From: Clostridia bacterium
GTDB lineage: Bacteria > Bacillota > Clostridia > Oscillospirales > RGIG5299
DNA length: 64,000 bases
Reading direction: 5' to 3'
Assembly (NCBI GenBank): GCA_017504945.1
Contig: JAFVQJ010000006.1
Span: 1-64,000, forward strand
The notes beneath the pieces are model-generated. The model had not been told where the DNA came from. It saw only the letters and a list, made by a program, of their open reading frames with translations, and made no database searches. Of the stretch, positions 33,075 through 59,142 are shown in pieces. A program made the translations under genes and the position numbers. Every line of letters starts with the position of its first letter. Position 1 is the stretch's first letter.

Positions 33075-33114
33075 AAAACAATGAGACCACCCAAAAGGGT
33101 GGTCTCATTGTTTT
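33075..33114 (-). terminator. Distal terminator, second copy of the tRNA-Ala tail terminator
   Basis: An 18-bp perfect stem with an AAAA loop (33075-33092 and 33097-33114). It has the same size and position relative to the duplicated tRNA tail as the stem at 33265-33304, and differs from it by paired substitutions in the outer half. Confidence 0.85.
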
Positions 33115-33264
33115 GGTGGACCCAAGGGGGATTTCTCGCGCTCGCTTTGCTTCGCTTGGGCGAATTCGAAACAGTTCCCCGAACTGTTTCTCCGTCGCAT
33201 CTGCTCCCTTTCGCTCCCATCTGCTCCCATTCGCAGTTCGATCCCCCTTCTTTTTGCTTCGCAA
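33114..33264 (-). repeat. tRNA-linked repeat element, copy A (at tRNA-Ala)
   Basis: Parts in plus coordinates. 33114-33132 is an exact 19-bp copy of the tRNA-Ala 3' end (CCA to T-loop). 33155-33235 is an 81-nt core. 33236-33249 (GTTCGATCCCCCTT) is the tRNA T-loop and T-stem in inverted orientation. The core contains GAAACAGTTC and GAACTGTTTC (33169-33178 and 33181-33190), a 10-bp hairpin. It aligns without gaps to 58927-59007 downstream of tRNA-Arg, with 70 of 81 positions identical by hand count. No credible protein is encoded. The short minus-strand frame WEQM..CDGETV.. is conserved between copies but has no start or ribosome site of note. Confidence 0.85.
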
Positions 33265-33303
33265 AAAATAATAAGACCACCCAAAAGGGTGGTCTTATTA
33301 TTT

Positions 33304-33304
<1 letters not shown>
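33265..33304 (-). terminator. Terminator directly after tRNA-Ala
   Basis: An 18-bp perfect stem with an AAAA loop (33265-33282 and 33287-33304) beginning at the last A of the tRNA CCA, followed on the minus strand by a T-run. It closes the ribosomal protein supercluster transcript. Confidence 0.92.
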
Positions 33305-33379
<75 letters not shown>

Positions 33380-58742: not shown

Positions 58743-58835
58743 ATATCCGTTCCTTCATATGCCACAGGTATATATCATCTGCGAAGCAGATATCATAGCG
58801 TTAGCTATATCACCCGTTCTGCAAGGAACGGATAT
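58743..58835. repeat. Small inverted-repeat element with internal hairpins
   Basis: ATATCCGTTCCTT (58743-58755) and AAGGAACGGATAT (58823-58835) are perfect 13-bp inverted repeats. Between them lie ATCTGC/GCAGAT (58778-58792) and ATAGC/GCTAT (58795-58808), linked by TATCA words. The plan, hairpins joined by GATAT or ATATC words, recalls the larger element at 16334-16721. Non-coding. Confidence 0.6.
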
Positions 58836-58841
58836 CATTGT

Positions 58842-58879
58842 AAAAACGCACCTTTGTCGTTAGACAAAAGTGCGTTTTT
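58842..58879 (-). terminator. Distal terminator of the tRNA-Arg repeat region
   Basis: AAAAACGCACCTTTGTC (58842-58858) and GACAAAAGTGCGTTTTT (58863-58879) form a 17-position stem with one mismatch. It sits next to the duplicated tRNA-Arg tail, as its counterpart does at the tRNA-Ala locus. Confidence 0.85.
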
Positions 58880-58882
58880 TAT

Positions 58883-59034
58883 TGGCCTGCCGTAAGGGAT
58901 TATATCGCAGTCGCGCACAGCGCTCCCTTGGGTGAATTCGAAACAGTCCACCGGACTGTTTCTCCGTCGCATCCGCTCGCCTTCTCTCGCATCTGCTCCC
59001 ATTCACGGTTCAAATCCCTTACATCTATAATAAA
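58883..59034 (-). repeat. tRNA-linked repeat element, copy B (at tRNA-Arg)
   Basis: Parts in plus coordinates. 58883-58901 is an exact 19-bp copy of the tRNA-Arg 3' end. 58927-59007 is the 81-nt core shared with 33155-33235. 59007-59022 (GGTTCAAATCCCTTAC) is the tRNA T-loop and T-stem in inverted orientation. The core hairpin is GAAACAGTCC/GGACTGTTTC, a T-A to C-G paired change relative to copy A. The tRNA-derived arms match tRNA-Arg and not tRNA-Ala. The direct copies of the tRNA tail are 183 bp apart (190 bp at tRNA-Ala). No convincing protein is encoded. Confidence 0.85.
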
Positions 59035-59035
59035 A

Positions 59036-59062
59036 CCGCACCTCGAAGGAGGTGCGGCTTCT
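59036..59062 (-). terminator. Terminator after tRNA-Arg
   Basis: CCGCACCTC (59036-59044) and GAGGTGCGG (59049-59057) form a 9-bp stem around GAAG, followed on the minus strand by TTTTATTATAG. It closes the pgcA-tRNA-Arg transcript. Confidence 0.85.
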
Positions 59063-59065
59063 ATT

Positions 59066-59142
59066 TGGCCTGCCGTAAGGGATTTGAACCCCTGTCCTTT
59101 GGAATCGGAATCCAACGCTCTATCCAGCTGGGCTAACGGCAG
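59066..59142 (-). tRNA. tRNA-Arg (anticodon CCG)
   Basis: A 77-nt cloverleaf with encoded CCA. The acceptor stem is CTGCCGT with ACGGCAG, the anticodon stem TTGGA/TCCAA with loop TTCCGAT, and the T-arm AGGGG-TTCAAAT-CCCTT. The D-stem has one C-A mismatch. Anticodon CCG reads CGG arginine codons. Its 5' end is only 8 nt after the pgcA stop codon, leaving no room for a promoter, so it must be cut from the operon mRNA. Confidence 0.95.

Follow-up and report, generated by a model that had tools for sequence, protein, structure and literature searches.

How can one short, gene-less sequence stand behind several different tRNA genes and carry, at each of them, pieces of that particular tRNA? The question is raised by a locus following tRNA-Arg(CCG) in the genome of a Clostridia bacterium (Bacillota; Oscillospirales; RGIG5299). 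The window, that is, the whole stretch of DNA analyzed, comprises 64 000 nucleotides (GenBank assembly GCA_017504945.1, contig JAFVQJ010000006.1, positions 1 to 64 000 of the forward strand). The 3' ends of tRNA genes are classic docking sites of mobile DNA, and the familiar users of these sites carry an integrase fitted to one of them. An earlier note, made from the letters of the window, had described behind tRNA-Arg(CCG) a copy of the tRNA tail, a core common to a second locus at tRNA-Ala and an inverted copy of the T-arm; it proposed that the arms are acquired locally or kept in step with the host tRNA and that the core is the mobile or conserved part. From the comparisons presented below, the element looks like an undescribed mobile cassette using tRNA ends as docking sites.

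Anatomy of the units at tRNA-Arg and tRNA-Ala

Read in the sense of the tRNA, on the minus strand, the Arg locus displays the tRNA ending in CCA, a terminator, the inverted T-arm copy (hereafter antiT), the core, the direct tail copy, a second terminator and a Gut-1 repeat (Table 1). The 19-bp tail copy and the 16-nt inverted T-arm copy announced by the earlier note are both exact, and the former belongs to a direct repeat of 20 out of 20 nucleotides (58882-58901 and 59065-59084) made of the 19-nt tail copy and one T. In predicted folds, the antiT pairs with the tail copy, and the apical hairpin of the core has a perfect 10-bp stem. The proximal terminator bears no similarity to the distal one. 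With blastn, the core match starts at position 58924 of the window, and the copies in the same genome are 79-86% identical; the copy at tRNA-Ala (33152-33239), with which a common core had been claimed, stands at 86% and its locus repeats the architecture, tail copy and antiT included. There, a 53-nt direct repeat holds the terminator as well as the tail copy. The Ala core also contains an imperfect 20-nt tandem repeat (33195-33234). Rfam returned chance-level matches only over 58860-59065, none at the gathering score.

Chance, held to be very unlikely in the earlier note, is excluded by the expectation of 0 hairpin matches in shuffled sequences and by the matches of 4-8 nt reached at the element-less tRNAs of the same genome. 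Beyond what had been noticed earlier, the core is a hairpin, terminators are present on both sides, the element lies on the 3' side of the tRNA, and the architecture is repeated at further tRNA genes and at the tmRNA gene.

Table 1. Coordinates in the window of the features forming the Arg and Ala units
Feature	Position	Strand	Evidence
Host tRNA-Arg(CCG)	59066..59142	(-)	ARAGORN and Rfam; copied segment is T-loop to CCA, positions 58-76
Proximal terminator hairpin of Arg unit, directly 3' of tRNA	59033..59060	(-)	12-bp inverted repeat
antiT of Arg unit (inverted T-arm copy)	59007..59022	(-)	16/16 complementary to 59075-59090; predicted folds
Core of Arg unit	58902..59006	(-)	Common to copies at Ala(CGC), tmRNA and Glu; blastn identity 79-86%; clusters
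Apical hairpin of Arg core, GAAACAGTCC-GGT-GGACTGTTTC	58940..58962	(-)	0 expected in shuffles; covariation in related elements
Tail copy, direct repeat of tRNA positions 58-76 with CCA	58883..58901	(-)	19/19 versus 59066-59084
Distal terminator of Arg unit, 3' of tail copy	58842..58879	(-)	17-bp inverted repeat
Gut-1 (RF01706) repeat beside Arg element	58767..58840	(-)	Rfam, 51.5 bits; 53 matches in genome
Host tRNA-Ala(CGC)	33304..33379	(-)	ARAGORN and Rfam
Terminator hairpin of Ala unit	33265..33303	(-)	18-bp inverted repeat
antiT of Ala unit	33236..33249	(-)	14/14 complementary to 33314-33327
Core of Ala unit	33133..33235	(-)	86% identity to Arg core
Apical hairpin of Ala core, GAAACAGTTC-GGG-GAACTGTTTC	33168..33190	(-)	0 expected in shuffles; predicted folds
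Tail copy of tRNA-Ala positions 58-76	33114..33132	(-)	Inside 53-nt direct repeat with 33270-33322
Distal terminator of Ala unit, near copy of the unit's own terminator	33080..33109	(-)	Direct repeat, 94%

Other copies in the same genome

The genome to which the window belongs amounts to 1.38 Mb and is 86% complete. Searching it with the core uncovered further copies at the tmRNA gene, at tRNA-Glu (in tandem) and at one place without tRNA. The 400 bp following 28 tRNA and tmRNA genes were also checked for any tail or antiT copy. Full elements were present at Met, Arg(ACG), Ala(CGC), Glu, Arg(CCG) and tmRNA; Ala(GGC) is followed by an element whose tail match is interrupted, and Gln (two) and Gly by remnants; the other tRNAs among these 28 genes possessed no tail or antiT copy above background, defined by best matches of 4-8 nt in element-less tRNAs and a single 11-nt match due to a neighboring tRNA. 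The earlier note predicted that further copies would have arms matching other tRNAs and ending at the T-loop. With elements found at Met, Glu, Ala(GGC), Arg(ACG) and tmRNA, this prediction therefore holds in its own genome.

At the tmRNA gene, the units form an array in which three exact tail copies are joined to TTCTCGC (contig C21, positions 1208, 5544 and 7372). The genes lying between them encode a DUF5677 protein, a small lipoprotein-like protein, an SGNH hydrolase and a truncated SDR. The units at C21:1208 and C21:5544 are core-deleted, their tail and first 15 core bases abutting gene fragments, one of which is a truncated short-chain dehydrogenase.

Gut-1 (RF01706), an sRNA entry in Rfam, constitutes a dispersed repeat of this genome with 53 matches. 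Several copies are located ~40 bp 3' of tRNA genes or directly after the distal terminators of elements (in the window, 58767-58840; elsewhere, C26:539-613, C31:10339-10415, C19:14559-14631, C16:2177-2250 and C4:84888-84962). Gut-1 also follows a tRNA-Trp element at locus L166.

Distribution across Clostridia

A pattern composed of the antiT, a short gap and the hairpin was scanned over ~85 000 species genomes and matched at least 119 stretches. The record titles that were read are of the Clostridia/Bacillota type, mostly metagenome-assembled genomes (MAGs) from animal guts, with one Roseovarius exception; this match (L159), which has neither tRNA nor arms, was taken as chance. In the first 80 loci, 61 of 89 matches are located less than 120 bp 3' of a tRNA gene on the same strand, and most of the remaining ones are near the end of the locus or belong to later units of an array. 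The isotypes concerned include Ser, Tyr, Gln, Lys, Arg, Pro, Leu, Thr, Trp, Ala, Met and Glu. Among units nearest to the tRNA, the tail copy ends at position 76 (CCA) in 40 loci, the large majority, and starts mostly at 54-61, and the antiT spans ~54 to 63-71. The expected arms are thus encountered at many isotypes in other Clostridia as well. Direct tail copies are common within 100-250 bp; inverted tail copies, looked for in the pattern loci, were absent, all copies being direct.

The element is widespread in uncultured gut Clostridia and more general than the earlier note saw. Its occurrence is patchy, with ~4 full elements at ~30 related tRNA-Arg genes. No Rfam family covers the elements of five other loci, the viral contigs of IMG/VR provided 3 pattern matches only, no annotated phage or plasmid matched the window element, and we found no description of such an element in the open-access literature.

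Structure of the hairpin core

The sequence of the apical hairpin varies and its shape is kept, as illustrated by AAACAGTCC-GGT-GGACTGTTT, AAATTGCC-GGT-GGCAATTT and GACGCGCC-GGT-GGCGCGTC. The internal loop below it is asymmetric, with GTTAAG or GTAAAG facing TA in one class and AGTGAA facing GA in another, and the outer stem below this loop covaries freely. For 17 class-I sequences, which were themselves extracted by pairing, two-sided changes affect 10 of 14 pairs and 99% of the cells pair, more than in any shuffle or slid register. More weight is therefore given to a test using unpaired letters, whose rows were chosen only by the letters of the internal loop and by A/T runs: Watson-Crick pairs make up 81% of the outer stem, versus 41% when partners are swapped and 23-35% when they are slid. 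The antiT and the tail are predicted to close the single-strand structure, with fold z-scores of -1.7 to -3.7. By these alignments, the core is a covarying hairpin whose internal loops are conserved.

For a blind search of 398 genomes of the phylum, a covariance model was built from the 39-nt hairpin region, devoid of arms. The four genomes with the best full-length hits (G563, G043, G000 and G494; E<1e-7) all hold tRNA-flanking elements with an antiT, at tRNA-Met, tRNA-Thr, tRNA-Met and tRNA-Arg, respectively. Three of them are outside the training set, two come from other classes and one consists of a single contig. The weaker matches of the model include dispersed hairpins without tRNAs.

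Arms follow the local tRNA and cores do not

The tail was that of the local tRNA in 70 of 70 loci, versus 0-1 of 70 for the tail of a random other isotype; these loci having been chosen for the presence of both arms, the isotype swap is the informative part. Beyond position 58, the match of the antiT stem extends on average over 7.1 nt with the local tRNA and over 3.2 nt with other isotypes. A separate comparison of the antiT with the tail and with the host tRNA used elements whose detection rule already demanded a tRNA match, and it does not discriminate between the two. A search independent of the host relied on antiT-tail complementarity and CCA only. It delivered 58 elements carrying the tail of their host with 0-2 mismatches and nine others, all but one of which are spurious or off-register matches or have decayed tails. 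The exception belongs to G494, the single-contig genome from another class, where Leu-type arms stand beside tRNA-Arg(TCT). Both arms agree with each other and not with the host tRNA, and the tRNAs of G494 itself offer no exact match to them. Arms can therefore travel with the element, albeit rarely. The proposal that they are local or kept in step with the host tRNA is supported by the 70 loci (0-1 after the swap) and fails for this one element; foreign arms beside another tRNA, which the earlier note had held to speak against it, were thus met once, as opposed to 58 host-matching elements.

The core classes each span several isotypes, according to a coarse clustering whose borders are rough because the shared hairpin helps single linkage. 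Cores are also swapped: at a tRNA-Ser (L198) two tandem units have the same arms and different core classes, and in G001, a sister species within the genus, the orthologous tRNA-Arg(CCG), with the same upstream gene (56% identical protein), is followed by a different core. Such comparisons suggest that the core moves.

Arrays, cargo genes and a 5S rRNA array

Tandem arrays of units occur in the window's genome and at other loci. At L104 the units are parted by a gene whose protein matches the candidate defense family PDC-S02 (E=1.8e-30). Further cargo includes a 424-aa protein with an endonuclease-like C-terminal part (L122), a SAV1803-type protein (L162) and a GNAT acetyltransferase (L153), a sample too small to call the cargo mainly defense.

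The complete genome G686 harbors, downstream of an intact 5S gene, tandem units of ~320 bp made of 5S rRNA pieces (L358, 920-2350). These units carry inserted ACAGTCC-type hairpins and each ends with the 5S 3' part and a terminator. This array may follow the same principle at another RNA gene.

Search for a recombinase

Neither a motif scan of 80 loci nor phmmer over ~155 loci detected a consistent integrase or recombinase beside the arrays, and the cargo genes examined comprised no recombinases and no tycheposon markers (tyrosine recombinase, replication and packaging genes). The only tyrosine recombinase found in the window's genome is encoded on another contig (C14:60984-61817). XerA-type models match it best, below their cut-off, and integron integrase models are far below cut-off; within the order, the distribution of its relatives is patchy, with several copies per genome in some cases. 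This protein was rejected as a dedicated enzyme, as it does not co-localize with the elements. Its co-occurrence with the element is weak, at 22/54 versus 56/193 genomes (p=0.07), and a match at E<=1e-25 is present in only 7 of 49 element-bearing genomes.

Phage integrases were discarded as the general enzyme, being found beside the element at L107 and L335 only. At L107, the prophage is lodged within the tRNA gene, upstream of an element array already present; positions 1-1600 of this locus contain a partial tRNA-Met followed by two near-identical units. At L335, a prophage-type integrase adjoins a tRNA that already has an element downstream. Large serine recombinase genes are carried by two element-bearing IMG/VR contigs (L334, 4220-5791; L333, 1080-2672), the one on L334 ending just before the antiT of the unit.

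A cassette model and its alternatives

That the elements are small gene-less cassettes of ~100-200 bp docking at tRNA and tmRNA 3' ends is a reading to which we give an even chance. In the sense of the tRNA, a unit would consist of the tail (58-76), the terminator, an optional cargo gene, the antiT and the hairpin core. Recombination at the T-loop (~54-58) would join the 5' part of the tRNA to the incoming tail, so that the tRNA would stay intact; the old tail would be left behind the core, and repeated events would generate head-to-tail arrays. A tail extending from the T-loop to CCA is the usual mark of tRNA-regenerating integration at the 3' end. Simple integration at the T-loop leaves unexplained, however, the association of one core with the arms of many tRNAs. 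The lack of a recombinase in or consistently near the units, the duplicated terminator of some loci and the presence of the hairpin away from tRNAs, including the 5S rRNA array, also speak against the model, and neither circles nor excision events were observed. On a single strand, the duplex of the antiT-tail stem would represent half of the T-arm site of the tRNA, topped by the core in the form of a branched hairpin. The antiT copy would make sense if the unit were recognized in folded form, because antiT and tail would form this half-site duplex. The site could accordingly be used as a folded single strand, like the attC of integrons or the attP of CTX phage, by a recombinase supplied in trans; in terms of integron cassettes, the antiT would correspond to R'', the tail to R' and the hairpin to the inner arms. 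We are doubtful about the full version of this idea, an integron-like cassette system with tRNA and tmRNA 3' ends as docks, T-arm-rebuilding hairpins as cassette sites and a putative recombinase.

An unlikely alternative invokes a MITE-like core whose insertion sites are sequences able to form hairpins (T-arm plus terminator, or terminators) and whose insertion duplicates the target, the arms being made locally and needing no specialized element. The duplicated segment takes in the terminator in ~17-24 of 65 loci, about a quarter to a third, and in some of them continues across the antiT up to the start of the core, a pattern also compatible with target duplication or unequal crossing-over. 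Among the hairpin copies away from tRNAs, those of three genomes (L257, L258 and L260) are enclosed by direct repeats, 26-28 nt in length, of a hairpin resembling a terminator. Such flanking repeats are nevertheless restricted to 3 of 35 dispersed hairpin copies; in most loci the proximal and distal terminators are unrelated and the tails identical, and the duplication ends at CCA, where a blind duplication would not stop. The antiT copy is also left unexplained. Core exchange at T-loop boundaries, or target duplication, could explain the changed arms and the duplicated terminators.

The elements might instead be remnants or satellites of integrase elements, namely attL/attR scars of phages and islands at tRNA 3' ends that were passively spread. 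Sites of this kind are usually recognized by direct repeats of tRNA 3' ends; prophage integrase genes adjoin elements at L107 and L335, and the viral contigs L334 and L333 bear both elements and large serine recombinases. A covarying core common to several isotypes and classes would not be expected of scars, though, nor would an inverted T-arm copy; the L107 prophage lies inside a tRNA whose downstream array was already in place, and the 3 matches in IMG/VR and the absence of the window element from annotated phages and plasmids make this origin improbable. Least probable is a host structured RNA located 3' of tRNAs, its tandem copies arising by homologous recombination and its arms being equalized by gene conversion or selection. 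It would account for the conserved, covarying secondary structure with internal loops, for the constant position and orientation after tRNAs and for the better folding of the tRNA-sense strand (47 of 64). An RNA agrees poorly with patchy presence, with different cores at orthologous tRNAs, with a terminator preceding each unit and with the failure of any Rfam family to fit. The outer stems display no excess of G-T over A-C overall (26 versus 29 in a symmetric count); in class II stems, G-T occurs 9 times and A-C 0 times, mostly at one repeated position.

Comparison with known systems

Integron cassettes are arranged head-to-tail, some without genes, and each is terminated by an imperfect inverted repeat that has extrahelical bases; the sites of one genome resemble each other and the cargo differs. 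The units described here are likewise assembled in head-to-tail arrays and bounded by a foldable imperfect inverted repeat with an asymmetric internal loop. Contrary to integrons, they dock at tRNA and tmRNA genes and not at an attI beside intI, with many docking sites per genome, their arms are T-arm sequence (GTTC[GA]A...) and not GTTRRRY/RYYYAAC boxes, each unit includes a terminator, and no intI-type integrase was found next to the arrays. With the islands, ICEs and tycheposons that integrate into tRNA genes, they share the direct repeat of the tRNA 3' end, the regenerated tRNA and cargo that may be defense-like; they differ by a size of 100-200 bp, the lack of an integrase, the inverted T-arm copy and the conserved hairpin core. 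REP and MITE-like repeats are similarly short, non-coding, palindromic and dispersed, but the present elements have a fixed place and orientation after tRNA genes, and inverted arms that vary with the host tRNA instead of fixed terminal repeats. Kilobase-sized Vibrio elements with their own recombinases have in common a possible one-strand recombination, whereas size and enzymes differ.

In CTX phage and other elements exploiting host Xer recombinases (IMEX; cited in PMC9345347), a folded single strand rebuilds a host recombination site, on which the host enzyme acts. A folded strand rebuilding a host site is what we propose for the present elements too; their target would be a tRNA gene and not dif, and they carry no phage or plasmid genes.

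At a dozen different tRNAs, one thus meets units devoid of genes that have a structured core in common, nearly always bear the sequence of the local tRNA and can keep cargo genes apart in arrays. Should they be mobile, they would give uncultured Clostridia a widespread means of shuffling small genes, and the question would arise of which enzyme recombines at the universal T-loop and leaves tRNAs intact. They also account for a class of repeats at contig ends in many MAGs. The open-access sources searched yielded no described family to which the element could be assigned. Although it lacks defining features of both, having no integrase and no core boxes, the element resembles tRNA-targeted integration on the one hand and integron cassettes on the other.
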